Shown here: piece after piece, positions 38,829 through 46,398 of the stretch | How positions within the stretch are numbered: position 1 is the stretch's first letter | How the letters are laid out: each line of letters starts with the position of its first letter | Origin: Hymenobacter chitinivorans DSM 11115 | GTDB taxonomy: Bacteria > Bacteroidota > Bacteroidia > Cytophagales > Hymenobacteraceae | Length of the DNA stretch: 64,000 nucleotides | Assembly: GCF_002797555.1 (NCBI RefSeq) | Contig: NZ_PGFA01000001.1 | Span: 2,170,001 to 2,234,000 of the forward strand | Direction of reading: 5' to 3' | The notes under the pieces: generated by a model | Database searches by the model: none | What the model saw: the letters and a program-made list of their open reading frames with translations, nothing else | Told to the model about the DNA's origin: nothing | Program-made: the position numbers and the translations under genes

Positions 38829-41800
38829 ATGCCTCGTTTGCTACTGTTCACGCTTTATCTGTTGCTGCTCCCTATTGCTGCCCCGGCCCAGCAGCGCCTG
38901 GCCACCGCCCGGCAGCGCAGCTACCTGACCAAGGTATTCCGGCTGAGTGAGGAGCAAACCCGCCACCTCTATGAGCACGACCTAGGGGCGGCCCGGCCCG
39001 AGTTTTTCACCCAGCCCGTCGACTCCTTTCCCTCCGACTCGGCCCGGCAGATGCGCCCCCTGCCCCCGGGCTATTACCTGGTGGCCCACACCGAAGGCCC
39101 GCAGCTGGTGTACTGGCTGCGCTGCGTAACCGACCGGGAAGTGGTGGTCGTCGACAACCAGGTGGACCTGACCCTGGTGGTGCGCGACTCCCTGGGCCGC
39201 CCGCTGGAAGATGCCCGCGTGGCCCTGGCCCGCCGCCCGGTGCCGTTTGACGCGGCCACGCGGGCCTACCGGCTGCCCAACCGCGGCCGGAGTGGGCTGC
39301 TGGCCGTCACCCAGGCCGGGCGCACCACCTTTCACGTGGTGGAAAAGCAGGCAGACCCGAGCACCTACTGGCAGCAGCAGCCTTTGGGCCGCAAGATTCT
39401 GTGGGTTGGGCGCCGCCTCGTGTTCGGCTTTCCGCTGGGCTACCTCACCAAGCCCGTCTGGAACCTGGGCCACGACCTGAAACACGTTTCCTACGTGTCG
39501 ACGGGACCCGTGGGCTTGCTGCGCTCGGCCTTTAGCGAAGACGTGCGCGCGGAGCGCCGCAACCGGCGCGCCTACCAGGAAGGGCAGCAATGGACAAGCT
39601 ACGTGGCCCTGAGCAAGCCCAAATACCGCCCCGCCGGCGACACGCTGCACCTGAAGGTGCGCCTGCTGCGTCGCCCCTCCGGTCGGCCCGGCCGCCAGCC
39701 GCTGACCCTGTGGCTGGGCGGGGGCTACGGCCAGCCGGAAAAGAAACTGGCGGTGCTGCGGCCCGTGCGGCCCGGCTCCTACGAGTACACCCTGCCCCTG
39801 ACCGATACGCTGGGTTTGCGGGCCGATACGCGGGTGGGCTTCCGGCTGGAAAACCGCCGGGGGCAGCCCTTAGTCCGGGGCAATTTTCAACTGGAAGACT
39901 ACGAGCTTAAAAGTACCCGCTACACCCTGCGCGTGGCCGAGAAAGAGCACCGCCGGGGCCAGCCCCAGGCCGTGTTTCTGCGCGGCACCGACTCCAACGA
40001 CCTCAACCTGCTCGATGCCCGGGTGCGGCTGAGCGTGACGCCCCGCTCCCCGCTCGGCCCTTTCAGCCAGCGCCAGCTGTTTCTGCCCGACACGCTCTGG
40101 ACCCGCAGCCAGGCCCTGGACCCCACCGGGGAAACCCGCCTGAACCTGCCGGCCGGCATTTTCCCCGAAGCCGAATTCTCCTACGCCGTCGGAGCCGTGT
40201 TCCTGAATGCCGATAATGAGCGGCGCACTGAAACGACGACCGTGCCCTACGGCCTGGATCCGGGCAAGCTGCAAGTGGAGCTGGCCGGCGACTCGGTGCG
40301 CCTGCGCTACCTGGTGCAGGGCCAGTCGGTGCCCCATGCGGCCCGGCTGGAAGTCAGCAATGGCCGGGAGCTGGGTTCCGGCACCTTGCAAGCCGGCCCC
40401 GTGCAGCTGCCGCTCACCCTGCCCGTCGACCCGCGGGCGGCTTCCTACGAGCTGAGTGATGCCGACCACCGCTCGGTGGAGTTGGAATTGACCGAGGCCA
40501 ACGCCGGCCTGAGTGTGCGCTCCGACCGGACCCACGACTCGATTTTTATCAGCGTCGACAACCCGCGGCGGCTGCCGTTCTGGTATTTCGTGTACCGCGC
40601 CAACACCCTGGTGCAGCGCGGCTACGGCTCAGAGTTGCAGCTGCAAACCACGGCGCCCGGCCCGGAAACCTGGTCGGTGTCGGTGCACTACCTCTGGGGC
40701 GAGGAGCTGCGCAAGGCGGAGTATAGTATTCCCCTGCCCCAGCGCCAGCTCATCGTGCGCGCCGAGCAGCCCGAGGTGGCTTATCCGGGCCAGAAAATCC
40801 GGCTGCAGTACACCGTCACCGACGGCGGCGGGCGGCCCGTGCCCGGCGTCGACTTGACTTCCTACGCCTACACCAGCAAGTTTGGGCAGGCCAAGCTGGA
40901 GCAGAACTTGCCCAGCTTTGAGCCCCGGGTAGTGGGCCGCCGGTCCAAGCGCCGGTTTGCCCTGAAAGAGGGCTTCGACAACTCCCCCGCCGACGCCGGC
41001 CGGCAGCTCTTGCCCTGGGCCCAGTGGCGCCACCAGCTGGGCCTCGACTCGCTGCGGTTTTACCAGTTTCTCTATCCCGAGTCGGGCGCGTTTTACCAGT
41101 ACGAGCCCGCGCCCGGCGGCCTGACTCAGCTGGCGCCATTCGTGGTGGATTCGGGCCGGGTGGAGCCGCCCGTGGCCGTGTACCTGGACGGCGTGCCGGT
41201 GTACGTGTACGAAGTCAACCAGCACGAGCCCTACGCCCTGGTGGCCGAGCCGGGCCGGCACACGCTCAGCATCCGGACCGCCACCCGCCTCGTGACCCTG
41301 CACGACGTGTATCTGCGCCACCTGCACAAGCTCACGCTCAGCATCGACGTTAACCAGCCCTGCGCCGAGCTGACCGTGGAAAAGCGCCGCCCGCTGCTGA
41401 CGCCCGAGGAAAAGCTGACCCTGACCCGCTCGTTGCTGGTAACGGAAACCGACTACACCTACAGCAGCCTGCGCCAGGGCAACGTGCTGCGGCCCGTCAG
41501 TCGCCTGGGCTACCACGGCGTGGATTCCTACAGCCTCGCGGGCCCGTTCCGGCCCGACTCGGTGCTGCTGCGGCGCTCCGACGGGCTGCGGCGCAGCTTC
41601 CTGTTTGAGCCCCTGTACCGCTACTATTTCGCGCCCGGCCTGGTGAAACTGACCAGCCTGGACCCGACGACCCACGCCCAATTGTTTGGGAGCCTGCACC
41701 GCGCCGGTTTTCCCGGCGCCCTGCCCCTGGGCGACTTTGCCCTGACCGAAGCCGCCTTCCAAGCCCGCTACCTGCCCGGTAACGCCACCTGGGCGCCCGC

Positions 41801-44800
41801 CCCGCCCCGGCCCGGCTACAACTTTAAAACCCCGCTGCAGACGCCCGCCGGGCAGGGCCGCCTGGAAGTGCGCCTGCCCCCGCGCCCGGCCGACGCCGGG
41901 CCCGGCTACCGATTTCCGAACGTAGCATACCTGCTGCTCACCCAGCCCGGCAACGCTAAATTTCACCGTCTGCAGCCTCACCTGAACCTGGTGCACGCCC
42001 TGCCCGCGGGCCGCTACCGGGTGGCCGTGCTGCTTGCGGACAGCACCAGTCTGCTCCCCACCGAGGAAGTGGTGGTGGCTCCCGATGGGGTGACCTATTT
42101 CCAGCTGCGCCTCCCCGACCGGCAGCCCGGCGCGGCCCTGCGGCGGCGCATCGGCCAGCTGCTGCCCGGCTACGAGGCCAAAGACCTGAGTTTGGTGACG
42201 CCGGCCGAGGAGCTCAAAAGGGCCCAGCGCACCATTAACATTACCCAGTACGGCCAGCCGCAGCCGGGCTGGCGCACCATCCGCGGGCAGGTCACCGACC
42301 GCCAATCGGGGGAAGGCCTGCCCGGGGTGACGGTGCTGGTGGAGGGCACCACGATTGGGGCTGCTACCAACGCCGACGGCACCTACGCGCTGCAGGTTCC
42401 CAACGAAAACGTGACGCTGACTTTTAGCTCCATTGGCTACGTGCAGGAGCAAAGGCCCGCCGACCAGTACGAAATAAACGTGGCCTTGAAAGTAGATACC
42501 AAGCAGCTTTCGGAAGTGGTAGTGGTAGCATACGGCACCGAAACCAGCCGCCGAAGCGTGAGCTACGCCACGGCCACGGTATCAAACCAACTGGCGGGCA
42601 AAGTAGCCGGGGTGCAGATTCGCGGGGCGGCGACGCTGGGTTCGGGCGTGCCGGGCGGGGCCACCAACATCTTCATCCGGGGCGTGGCCTCTCTGCCCGC
42701 CGCGGCCCAACCCCTGATTATCCTCGACGGCCTGCCCTTCAACGGCCGGCTGGAAGACGTGAGCCCCAGTGATATTGCCTCCGTCAAGCTGCTGAAAGAT
42801 GCGGCGGCCACGGCCACCTACGGGGCCCGGGCGGCCAATGGGGTGCTTTTTATTACCACCAAAGCCAGCGGCACCAGCAACGACCCCGCCGGCCGGGACC
42901 CGCGCCTGGCCCTGCGCCGCAACTTCCGCGACTACGCCTGGTGGCGGCCCACGCTCATTACCGACGCCCAGGGCCGGGCCAGCACCGACGTAACCCTGCC
43001 CGACGACGTGACCGGCTGGGACACCTTCGTGCTGGGCTCCGACGACCACGGCCGCGTGGGCTCAGCCACCCAACTGCTGCGCTCCTTTAAAGCCTTGCTG
43101 GCCGAGCTGGCCGTGCCCCGCTTCCTCATCGAGGGCGACCAGACTCAGGTGCTGGGCAAAACCCTGAACTACACGCCCGACTCGGCCCAGGTCAGCACGG
43201 GCTTCGCGGTGGCCGGAGTGGCCGGCCCGCGCCACAGCCGCACGGTGCGCAGCTCGGTGCTGGACACGCTCAGCCTCACGGCCCCCACCGGCCAGGATTC
43301 GGTGCTGGTGAGCTACGACCTGCGCCAGGCCAGCGGCTACGCCGACGGGGAGCAGCGCCCGATTCCGGTGCTGCGGGCCGGCACCCGGGAGAATATCGGC
43401 ACCTTCGCCATTCTCGCGGCCCCCGACACGACCCTGACCCTGCCCTTCGACCCGCAACTGGGGCCCGTGACGGTGCGCCTGGAAAGTGACGCGCTGCCGG
43501 TGCTGCTGTCCGAAATTCAGCACCTGCAGCAGTACGCCTACCTCTGCAACGAGCAGGCCGCCTCCAAGCTCAAGGCCCTGCTGCTCGAAAAGCAGATCCG
43601 GGCCGTGCGCCAGGAGCCCTTCAACGGTGACCGGAGCATCAACTTTCTCATTCGTAAGCTGCTGGCCGGCCGCCACCAGCCCGAAAACCTGCTCTGGGGC
43701 ACCTGGGCCGCCTCCGAGGTTAGTCCCTGGGCCACCACCCACGTGCTGGAAGCGTTGCTGGCCGCCGAAAAAGCCGGCTACAAGGTGCGCCTCGACCGGG
43801 ACAAGCTCCAGCCCTACCTCTTGCAGGAGCTGGATTACCACCTGGCCGCCAAGCCCAACCCCGCCCAGCTTCAGCTGCGGCGCACCTGGTACTACCAGTC
43901 GGACGACGACCTGATCCGGCTGCTGCGGGTACTGCACCAGCTGGGCACGGCCACCGATTACCGCACCTACGTGGCGCGCCTGGAACGCTCCTACAAGGGC
44001 CGCCAGCCCTTGGACCGCTACCTGGCCCTGACCGAGTTGCGCCAGCAGCTGGGCCTGCCCTACCAGCTCGACTCGCTGCGGCGCTACCGCCTGAGCACCC
44101 AGCTGGGCGGGGTGTTCTACGCCGATACCCTGCGCCCGGGCTCCTACTACCGCTATTTGCTGCGCGGCAGCGTGGGCTCTACGCTGCTGGCCTACCGCCT
44201 GCTGCGCGCCCAGGGCGGCCACGAGCCGGAGCTGACCCGCATCCGCTTTTACCTGCTCAACCTGCGCCGCACCGACTACTGGACCAGCACCTACGAGGCG
44301 GCCCAGATTCTGGAAACCATCGGGCCCGACCTGCTGGCCGCCGGCCAACCGACTATTGCAGCGAAGGTGCAGCTCAGTGGGACCACCACTCAGCAAGTCA
44401 GCACCTTTCCCCAGCAGCTCACCTTGCCCGCCACCGCCGCCCCGCTGACCCTGCGCAAGACCGGCCTGCTGCCGGTGTACGCCACGGCCTACCAGACGCG
44501 CTGGAACCCCACGCCCGAGGCCACGGCCGCCCCCTTCACGGTGAAAACCGAGTTGGCCGGCCAAACCGGGCAGCAAGTGAGTTTGCGCGCCGGGCAGCCC
44601 GCCGAGCTGGTTGTGACGGTAAATGTGACGGCCGAGGCCCGCTACGTGCTGCTGGAAGTGCCCATTCCGGCCGGCTGCTCCTACGGCGACAACAAGGCGG
44701 GCAACTACTTCGAGGTGCACCGCGAATATCTGCGCCACCAGACCGGTATTTTCATCGACCGGCTGCCCGTGGGGGTGCACACCTTTCGCATTGCCCTGCA

Positions 44801-44906
44801 GCCCCGCTACCGGGGCCGCTACACCCTGAATCCGGCCAAAGCCGAGCTCATGTACTTTCCCACCCGCTTCGGCCGCAGCGCCAGCAAGCAGGTGCGGGTG
44901 CAGTAG
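38829..44906 (+). CDS. Giant alpha-2-macroglobulin family protein with an inserted SusC-type regulatory and plug segment
   Basis: 2025 aa. Signal peptide 1-21. Residues 50-1150 are a string of macroglobulin-type beta domains. Residues about 1150-1230 are a carboxypeptidase-regulatory-like domain (R-G-Q-V-T-D-R-Q-S-G-E-G-L-P-G-V-T-V). About 1235-1345 are a TonB-receptor plug-like domain with E-V-V-V-V-A-Y-G-T and K-D-A-A-A-T-A-T-Y-G-A-R-A-A-N-G. Then A2M-type domains resume (Y-A-W-W-R-P-T-L-I-T-D-A-Q-G-R), with a thioester-like C-N-E-Q at Cys1573, an alpha-helical toroid and a receptor-binding-like end. Bacterial A2Ms trap proteases in the periplasm. The SusC part lacks a barrel, so it is not a transporter. 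A plug next to a protease trap is an unusual combination. Confidence 0.9.
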   Translation: MPRLLLFTLYLLLLPIAAPAQQRLATARQRSYLTKVFRLSEEQTRHLYEHDLGAARPEFFTQPVDSFPSDSARQMRPLPPGYYLVAHTEGPQLVYWLRCVTDREVVVVDNQVDLTLVVRDSLGRPLEDARVALARRPVPFDAATRAYRLPNRGRSGLLAVTQAGRTTFHVVEKQADPSTYWQQQPLGRKILWVGRRLVFGFPLGYLTKPVWNLGHDLKHVSYVSTGPVGLLRSAFSEDVRAERRNRRAYQEGQQWTSYVALSKPKYRPAGDTLHLKVRLLRRPSGRPGRQPLTLWLGGGYGQPEKKLAVLRPVRPGSYEYTLPLTDTLGLRADTRVGFRLENRRGQPLVRGNFQLEDYELKSTRYTLRVAEKEHRRGQPQAVFLRGTDSNDLNLLDARVRLSVTPRSPLGPFSQRQLFLPDTLWTRSQALDPTGETRLNLPAGIFPEAEFSYAVGAVFLNADNERRTETTTVPYGLDPGKLQVELAGDSVRLRYLVQGQSVPHAARLEVSNGRELGSGTLQAGPVQLPLTLPVDPRAASYELSDADHRSVELELTEANAGLSVRSDRTHDSIFISVDNPRRLPFWYFVYRANTLVQRGYGSELQLQTTAPGPETWSVSVHYLWGEELRKAEYSIPLPQRQLIVRAEQPEVAYPGQKIRLQYTVTDGGGRPVPGVDLTSYAYTSKFGQAKLEQNLPSFEPRVVGRRSKRRFALKEGFDNSPADAGRQLLPWAQWRHQLGLDSLRFYQFLYPESGAFYQYEPAPGGLTQLAPFVVDSGRVEPPVAVYLDGVPVYVYEVNQHEPYALVAEPGRHTLSIRTATRLVTLHDVYLRHLHKLTLSIDVNQPCAELTVEKRRPLLTPEEKLTLTRSLLVTETDYTYSSLRQGNVLRPVSRLGYHGVDSYSLAGPFRPDSVLLRRSDGLRRSFLFEPLYRYYFAPGLVKLTSLDPTTHAQLFGSLHRAGFPGALPLGDFALTEAAFQARYLPGNATWAPAPPRPGYNFKTPLQTPAGQGRLEVRLPPRPADAGPGYRFPNVAYLLLTQPGNAKFHRLQPHLNLVHALPAGRYRVAVLLADSTSLLPTEEVVVAPDGVTYFQLRLPDRQPGAALRRRIGQLLPGYEAKDLSLVTPAEELKRAQRTINITQYGQPQPGWRTIRGQVTDRQSGEGLPGVTVLVEGTTIGAATNADGTYALQVPNENVTLTFSSIGYVQEQRPADQYEINVALKVDTKQLSEVVVVAYGTETSRRSVSYATATVSNQLAGKVAGVQIRGAATLGSGVPGGATNIFIRGVASLPAAAQPLIILDGLPFNGRLEDVSPSDIASVKLLKDAAATATYGARAANGVLFITTKASGTSNDPAGRDPRLALRRNFRDYAWWRPTLITDAQGRASTDVTLPDDVTGWDTFVLGSDDHGRVGSATQLLRSFKALLAELAVPRFLIEGDQTQVLGKTLNYTPDSAQVSTGFAVAGVAGPRHSRTVRSSVLDTLSLTAPTGQDSVLVSYDLRQASGYADGEQRPIPVLRAGTRENIGTFAILAAPDTTLTLPFDPQLGPVTVRLESDALPVLLSEIQHLQQYAYLCNEQAASKLKALLLEKQIRAVRQEPFNGDRSINFLIRKLLAGRHQPENLLWGTWAASEVSPWATTHVLEALLAAEKAGYKVRLDRDKLQPYLLQELDYHLAAKPNPAQLQLRRTWYYQSDDDLIRLLRVLHQLGTATDYRTYVARLERSYKGRQPLDRYLALTELRQQLGLPYQLDSLRRYRLSTQLGGVFYADTLRPGSYYRYLLRGSVGSTLLAYRLLRAQGGHEPELTRIRFYLLNLRRTDYWTSTYEAAQILETIGPDLLAAGQPTIAAKVQLSGTTTQQVSTFPQQLTLPATAAPLTLRKTGLLPVYATAYQTRWNPTPEATAAPFTVKTELAGQTGQQVSLRAGQPAELVVTVNVTAEARYVLLEVPIPAGCSYGDNKAGNYFEVHREYLRHQTGIFIDRLPVGVHTFRIALQPRYRGRYTLNPAKAELMYFPTRFGRSASKQVRVQ

Positions 44907-45873: not shown

Positions 45874-46398
45874 GGCAAGGCAACAGTCCCTTTTGCAACT
45901 CCCGTAGGCCCTCCGGGCAAGGCCACACCCGCTACTGCATCTGCAAAAGCCACTCTGGGCGAGACGACAGGGCCTTCCGTAGTTGCAAAAGCTCGTCTTG
46001 TCAAGGCGACAGGGCCTTCCGCAGTTGCAAAAGCCCTTCTTGTCAAGGCCGCCCGGCTTTGTGGCCCTGGATAAGGCCCAGCTGCCTCGGCTGCTTCTGG
46101 CTTCTCCCATTTCCGAAAGCCCGCCGGGACGTGGCATGAAGGCCTTTTCATGCCCCAAAACCTAGTCGGGACAAGTCCCGGACGTGTTTCGGGATTCTAA
46201 AAACCCACCGGGACAAGTCCCGGACCTATTCAATAACTCCAGAAACCAGCCGGGACTTGTCCCGGGGCATTTTTGCAGTTGCGGAAGCCCATCGGGACTT
46301 GTCCCGGACGGGTTTTGCAACTCTAAAAACCGGTCGGCACAAGTCCCGAGGCGTTTCTTTGGTTGCGGAAGCTTCCCGGGACTTGTCCCGGGCCCCGC
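45874..46398. repeat. 42-bp (2 x 21) phased array with palindromic cores upstream of the ABC-F gene
   Basis: Unit starts fall at 45874, 45916, 45958, 46000, 46042, 46084, 46126, 46168, 46210, 46252, 46294, 46336 and 46378: exactly 42 bp apart. Early units start with GGCAAGG/GTCAAGG; the last six begin with GGGACAAGTCCC or its inverse GGGACTTGTCCC (46336 has one mismatch). The second 21-bp half keeps a TTGCAGTTGCAAAAGCCC-like core throughout (for example 45979, 46021, 46273, 46315), which ties both parts into one array. In-frame stops occur in every frame over the whole array. It sits between the peptidase and ABC-F genes. Confidence 0.95.

Follow-up and report, generated by a model that had tools for sequence, protein, structure and literature searches.

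Introduction

In human alpha-2-macroglobulin (A2M), a member of a family of giant traps for proteases, the bait region (P690-T728) is followed by the alpha'NT strand, which carries the conserved residues R732 and F735 and threads a channel between the macroglobulin (MG) domains MG2 and MG3 (PMC9352918). It has been proposed that the trap is triggered when this strand retracts once the bait has been cut (PMC9352918). The entire bait can be replaced by GGS repeats, with function retained once cleavage sites are added (PMC9352918); the sequence of a bait is therefore free to specialise. In the A2M of Escherichia coli (ECAM, also named YfhM), the bait is located in the same domain region, and an EXMY motif has a role (PMC4498604). 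For bacterial A2Ms, no natural targets have been established. Here, we describe an A2M-like protein of Hymenobacter chitinivorans DSM 11115 whose bait position is occupied by a segment derived from the N-terminus of a SusC receptor. It is encoded at positions 38829-44906 of a 64,000-nucleotide stretch (contig NZ_PGFA01000001.1, positions 2,170,001 to 2,234,000), referred to below as the window.

A SusC-derived segment aligned to the bait region of a Hymenobacter A2M

The open reading frame (ORF) starts with ATG, lies on the forward strand and runs for 2025 amino acids (aa) in a single uninterrupted frame. Its features are as follows.

38829..44906 (+): ORF of 2025 aa, A2M-like protein with a SusC-derived segment in the bait position (ORF reading, Pfam A2M and bMG10, SusC signature, conservation in Hymenobacter)
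38829..38888 (+): signal peptide, aa 1-20, ending in AAPA ahead of QQ (sequence; cleavage site read by eye)
38889..42272 (+): N-terminal macroglobulin-type region, aa 21-1148, very divergent from solved A2Ms
42273..42503 (+): SusC-type N-terminal extension (NTE), CarboxypepD-regulatory-like, aa 1149-1225 (Pfam, NCBIfam, AlphaFold2, Foldseek)
42504..42536 (+): TonB-box-like motif QLSEVVVVAYG, aa 1226-1236 (sequence, AlphaFold2)
42537..42668 (+): low-confidence, unstructured stretch with the plug fragment LAGKVAGV at aa 1255-1262 (plug start absent from the profile match, low model confidence)
42669..42869 (+): C-terminal half of a SusC plug, aa 1281-1347, with the signature LLKDAAATATYGARAANGVLFITT (Pfam, NCBIfam, AlphaFold2)
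42915..42944 (+): alpha'NT-like motif RRNFRDYAWW, aa 1363-1372 (alignment to human A2M from residue 731 onward)
42939..43196 (+): A2M family domain PF00207, aa 1371-1456 (Pfam, 7.9e-14)
43545..43556 (+): thioester motif CNEQ, aa 1573-1576 (sequence)
44571..44861 (+): bacterial MG10 (bMG10), C-terminal MG domain, aa 1915-2011 (Pfam, 4e-13)

On sequence evidence, the ORF is an A2M with a CNEQ thioester and a C-terminal MG domain. Both PF00207 (51.7 bits, cut-off 21) and bMG10 (50.1 bits, cut-off 26.2) score above their Pfam cut-offs, CNEQ is unchanged in the Hymenobacter orthologues compared, and an EXMY-type motif lies within AELMY (aa 2005-2009) inside the C-terminal MG domain. The N-terminal region is divergent, its MG2 match reaching 14.9 bits against a profile cut-off of 32.8. 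An AlphaFold2 (AF2) model of aa 641-1544, built from a 13-sequence alignment, returned Foldseek matches to complement and A2M chains including ECAM (E down to 6e-11, at low template modelling (TM) scores); with a predicted TM score of 0.38, it was too weak for domain packing and was not used for it. Within the N-terminal half, aa ~768-824 (window ~41130-41300, VAVYLDGVPVYVYEVNQHEPYALVAEPGRHTLSIRT) resemble a PEGA-type domain when read by eye only. The signal peptide (aa 1-20, read from the sequence) lacks a lipobox cysteine, so the protein is predicted to be soluble and exported to the periplasm.

The profile matches identify aa 1149-1347 as a SusC NTE, a TonB box and a truncated plug. CarbopepD_reg_2 matches aa 1151-1232 (Pfam, 9e-19) and Plug (PF07715) matches aa 1248-1339 (2.7e-12), covering profile positions 22-107 of 107, so that the first 21 are missing. 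The SusC/RagA family model TIGR04056 matches the whole segment (NCBIfam, 4.8e-60) over profile positions 1-206 of 981 only. Its 203.9 bits lie under the full-family cut-off of 368.25 because the beta-barrel of a full-length family member is absent. The SusC signature TIGR04057 scores 51.5 bits, above its cut-off of 46.2, and identity to a full-length SusC frame of the same genome, among those found by search, reaches 56%; these similarities exclude a chance origin of the match.

Structural modelling agrees with this division. In an AF2 model of the segment, built from an alignment of 64 A2M and SusC segments, the NTE is folded, with a predicted local distance difference test (pLDDT) score of 97-98, and its best solved Foldseek matches are 9hfj, the isolated NTE of SusCdex BT3090 (TM 0.88 by target length), and 6ytc, that of the levan SusC. 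The TonB box is predicted to be disordered (pLDDT about 40-46). The plug is half-folded in this deep-alignment model, its C-terminal half reaching a pLDDT of about 90 over most of its length and its N-terminal half being of low confidence.

The position of the segment follows from the sequence behind it. The residues from aa 1363 on (RRNFRDYAWWRPTLITDAQG...) align with human A2M from residue 731 on; since the human bait spans residues 690-728, this alignment shows the SusC segment in the bait-region position. An R-x-x-F/L pattern directly behind the segment was also read by eye in non-classical relatives. The closest solved sequences divide in the same way, the segment matching N-termini of RagA and SusC and the part behind it matching human A2M. 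Replacement of the bait region by this segment points to a role in protease sensing.

A preliminary description of this ORF, made from the sequence alone, had located EVVVVAYGT (aa 1229-1237), YGARAANGV (aa 1331-1339) and CNEQ (aa 1573-1576), and these positions hold to the residue. Its account of one 2025-residue frame, with A2M-type domains on either side of a SusC-type regulatory and plug segment that has no barrel, is borne out by the ORF reading, by Pfam and by the two NCBIfam models. The placement in the bait-region position was not part of that description and is added here. The description had also named two alternative explanations. An ordinary macroglobulin domain misread as a plug is rejected because the SusC signature exceeds its curated cut-off and the best solved matches of the segment model are NTEs of SusC-type transporters. 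A chimera of assembly or annotation is rejected because the same order recurs in independently sequenced Hymenobacter species. Jointly, these two explanations retain a negligible probability.

SusC elements in the bait position of Bacteroidia A2Ms

The preliminary description had proposed a survey of the same domain order across the phylum, and such a survey finds SusC elements in the bait position to be widespread in the class Bacteroidia. It comprised 106 long A2Ms from a phylum sample, plus the Hymenobacter loci. The ~300 aa before the A2M domain were searched by iterated profiles and by position matrices for which SusC proteins alone had served as training set. A tree of the A2M bodies resolved three groups: the clade of the window protein (LCNEQ-like), a large clade with mostly ECxEQ-like motifs or no thioester motif, and the classical GCxEQ clade. 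Among members from the class Bacteroidia, a SusC element precedes PF00207 in 12/12 A2Ms of the window clade and 31/48 of the ECxEQ-like clade (43/60 for the two non-classical clades jointly), while only 4/21 out-of-class members of the ECxEQ-like clade carry one. The same bait-zone scan found none in the 25 classical GCxEQ A2Ms, of which 8 come from Bacteroidia itself.

Fisher tests, which ignore relatedness, gave p 6e-4 for the ECxEQ-like clade in versus out of class and p 2e-8 for its in-class members versus the classical A2Ms. Because of this limitation, changes were also counted by parsimony on the A2M body tree (FastTree only): presence or absence changes at least 15 times, the regulatory domain 9 times and the plug 7 times. 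The TonB-box and plug-start matrices never reached threshold outside the bait zone in the 106 A2Ms, with thresholds of 7 and 11, respectively, that were chosen once the top outside scores (5.6 and 10.8) were known.

The elements vary in extent and order. In 15 A2Ms, a TonB box or plug-start motif stands without a recognisable domain, and in four (L043, L057, L105 and L110) the SusC order is inverted, with the TonB box coming after the plug-start motif. Such short or reversed motifs are expected if what counts is the peptides and not an intact receptor domain. A clade without the CxEQ motif (L079, L103, L105, L110 and L120) also has SusC motifs in the bait position, partly in reversed order. 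Among 11 close relatives from one flavobacterial genus, identity is 81% over the A2M body and 42% over the 200-aa bait position; this position holds the regulatory domain only, the plug only, or both. Across 13 A2Ms of several families, the L, E, V, V, V and G of the TonB box are invariant.

The A2Ms with SusC elements have plain signal peptides, most of them ending in ...AQ. In about 21 of the 25 classical A2Ms (e.g., L042, L061, L062, L070 and L073), a lipoprotein-like cysteine was seen at the end of the hydrophobic core, 11 by pattern and the rest by eye.

SusC pieces also occur in other exported proteins of the same genome. A protein with a VWA domain (YfbK-like; L233:985-3234 (+), G000 contig C3, about 65.0-67.2 kb) carries an NTE, the TonB box EVVVTGYG and the plug fragment LEGKVAGV, all ahead of the VWA domain; some relatives in the class have other SusC or TonB-receptor pieces (L236, L237, L245, L249 and L253). 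A 181-codon, apparently exported frame about 10 kb upstream of the window (L232:1851-2393 (-), G000 contig C1, about 2160.4 kb) ends in an isolated C-terminal half-plug (LLYVVNGKPF...LHDAAATAIYGTRGATGVVVL).

No description of the SusC-bait arrangement in A2Ms was found in the literature searched, which covers few subscription journals; such proteins may be annotated in databases as 'plug domain-containing'.

Conservation and origin of the segment within Hymenobacter

A scan of reference genomes found the same arrangement in seven further Hymenobacter genomes, and an orthologue is present in 32 of 61 sampled genomes of the genus. In the 30 Hymenobacter loci that were read, the window's own included, the NTE is present in 30/30 and the plug in 29/30, one locus having the NTE only. 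Outside the genus, the same A2M subfamily has both modules in G253, G126 and G238 and the regulatory domain alone in G391. The TonB box pattern L.EVVV...G is conserved at >=90% in the 30 loci, and the residues at that level include core SusC ones.

The segment evolves faster than the A2M body (mean distance 0.50 vs 0.35), and its distances track those of the body (r 0.78). The ratio of nonsynonymous to synonymous divergence (dN/dS) is 0.16-0.20 for the plug and 0.22-0.36 for the NTE/regulatory domain, values that show the segment to be constrained, as estimated from these sequences, by purifying selection.

Synonymous divergence is raised in the segment by a factor of 1.3-1.9 over the rest (0.52 against 0.27 and 0.85 against 0.51, for example) and exceeds every same-size window in 3/4 close-species pairs. 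GC content at third codon positions (GC3) is lowest in the ORF over the segment (window 42273-42869), at 0.779 versus a mean of 0.874; the corresponding value for SusC N-termini is 0.771. Raised synonymous divergence and low GC3 would fit past exchange with SusC genes, and a relaxed codon bias could be an alternative cause of both. In a tree of the segments, those of Hymenobacter A2Ms group with a SusC subgroup of the same genome (support 99/86), and A2M segments fall in two or more places. The approximately unbiased (AU) test rejects neither a single clade of all A2M segments (p 0.128) nor a single Hymenobacter clade (p 0.45). On the segment tree, SusC pieces may have been captured by A2Ms once or several times.

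A proposed trap with a SusC-mimicking bait and its alternatives

We tentatively favour, at a probability somewhat short of even, a reading in which the protein is a soluble periplasmic protease trap whose bait is built from a SusC N-terminus and which would be sprung by proteases that cut SusC N-termini. Starting from the architecture, position, conservation, purifying selection and Bacteroidia-wide pattern shown above, we infer the cleavage, the trapping and the kind of protease targeted. An exposed stretch without structure, near the TonB box and the start of the plug (about aa 1226-1295), would be cut by a protease, most likely within window 42537-42668. The alpha'NT strand (aa 1363 on) would then retract from its channel, the A2M body would collapse, and the CNEQ thioester would capture the attacking protease covalently. 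The parts required by such a trap (PF00207, bMG10, CNEQ and ELMY) are kept. By imitating SusC, such a bait would bias the trap towards proteases directed at the periplasmic N-termini of the many SusC receptors in the cell.

The class-wide recurrence of SusC elements in the bait position suggests traps sprung by receptor-attacking proteases. A wider proposal holds that Bacteroidia have repeatedly remade their A2M baits out of their own SusC N-termini, as a kind of receptor mimicry in traps that resemble innate immunity, with the effect that any protease capable of attacking these dominant nutrient receptors springs the trap, and, in an extreme version, that TonB opens it mechanically through the embedded box; as a whole, this proposal is somewhat unlikely. 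Should the bait of Bacteroidia A2Ms be a copy of SusC, its sequence would identify the protein under protection and reduce the range of candidate attackers. If true, this would also provide a sequence-readable record of bait evolution in an immunity-like bacterial protein and a natural series of bait variants.

Several observations weigh against a SusC-mimicking trap. SusC elements are undetectable in 17/48 in-class ECxEQ-type A2Ms, so that mimicry is dispensable for an A2M there. Some thioester-less A2Ms carry SusC motifs too; the thioester-less MagD still traps protease, non-covalently (PMC5764988). The N-terminal MG domains of the window protein are too divergent for one-by-one mapping. Finally, SusC pieces are present in bait-less exported proteins such as the VWA protein, so the module is promiscuous, which keeps alive both main rivals of the favoured reading, one functional and one non-functional.

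The main non-functional rival is recombination into a permissive site. A bait region that tolerates almost any sequence would be filled from SusC genes, which share the NTE fold and rank with the largest gene families in these genomes, and SusC identity would have little specific function. Donors are abundant, with 12-75 SusC signature matches per genome in 12 genomes of the class, and SusC genes are fewer outside the class, where A2M elements are rare. The grouping of Hymenobacter A2M segments among SusCs of the same genus, their low GC3 and raised synonymous divergence, and the repeated changes of presence on the A2M body tree are all in line with such capture. What it explains less well is that, in the Hymenobacter A2Ms sampled, purifying selection preserves both the motifs and the reading frame, and that the segment tracks the A2M body and a single Hymenobacter clade is not rejected, which argues for inheritance with maintenance of the segment and against its constant replacement. 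Classical A2Ms of the same class carry no SusC pieces, although this comparison comprises 8 proteins only. We consider this explanation unlikely, if a serious competitor.

The main functional rival, TonB docking, had been raised in the preliminary description together with docking of the plug into an outer membrane barrel. The latter is unlikely: the plug is truncated, only its C-terminal half is predicted to fold, and some relatives hold only fragments or shuffled motifs; with its start missing, the plug could not occupy a barrel the way a SusC plug does. Docking to TonB is the part that survives as a possibility. The box (and the NTE) would bind TonB or a SusC-associated partner and park the soluble A2M at TonB-dependent receptor sites, where TonB might even pull the bait and open the trap mechanically. 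The protein has the box EVVVVAYG, through which it might bind TonB, and this motif is among the most conserved parts in Hymenobacter and in the 13 A2Ms noted above. SusC-bearing A2Ms have ordinary signal peptides and most classical Bacteroidota A2Ms are lipoprotein-like, so a substitute anchor would make sense; the VWA protein shows the same NTE and box. Yet relatives exist with a plug and no box (L078, L121, L126, L296, L301 and L302) or with a plug-start motif only (L079, L083, L113 and L119), and no conserved neighbour ties the A2M gene to TonB or SusCD. Overall, docking is distinctly unlikely.

Genomic neighbourhood

No operon partner was recognised, as conservation of the genes next to the A2M stops at its closest relatives. 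The downstream M48/YgjP-like gene (name read from sequence) adjoins the A2M gene in H. nitidus and H. metallicola only. Two tandem repeat arrays with periods of 42 and 84 lie between this gene and an ABC-F-like gene (window 45942-46391).

Comparison with known systems

With the Type I bacterial A2Ms ECAM and SaA2M (of Salmonella), the window protein shares the A2M domain, CxEQ and a C-terminal MG domain with an EXMY-type motif, probably further MG domains, and a putative bait segment directly ahead of alpha'NT and the A2M domain (PMC4498604). ECAM is anchored in the inner membrane, and Type I genes often lie beside PBP1c (PMC5764988), whereas the signal peptide of the window protein is plain and none of its gene neighbours is conserved across the genus. 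Its bait position differs from that of ECAM in holding about 200 aa of SusC NTE, TonB box and truncated plug.

The window protein has the proposed trap logic, the R/F pattern of alpha'NT and an A2M domain that aligns in common with human A2M and complement C3/C5. C3/C5 further resemble the window protein in having a folded domain, the anaphylatoxin (ANA), in the bait position. ANA is a small helical domain that is released on cleavage; the insert described here is bacterial and SusC-derived.

SusC/RagA proteins (TIGR04056) share the NTE, TonB box, plug fragments and C-terminal plug signature, with the within-genome identity given above; the window protein differs in lacking a barrel and the plug start and in having these pieces embedded in an A2M. 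The VWA-domain exported proteins of Bacteroidota likewise bear the same SusC pieces on a non-receptor exported protein, but there they stand near the N-terminus and not in a bait.

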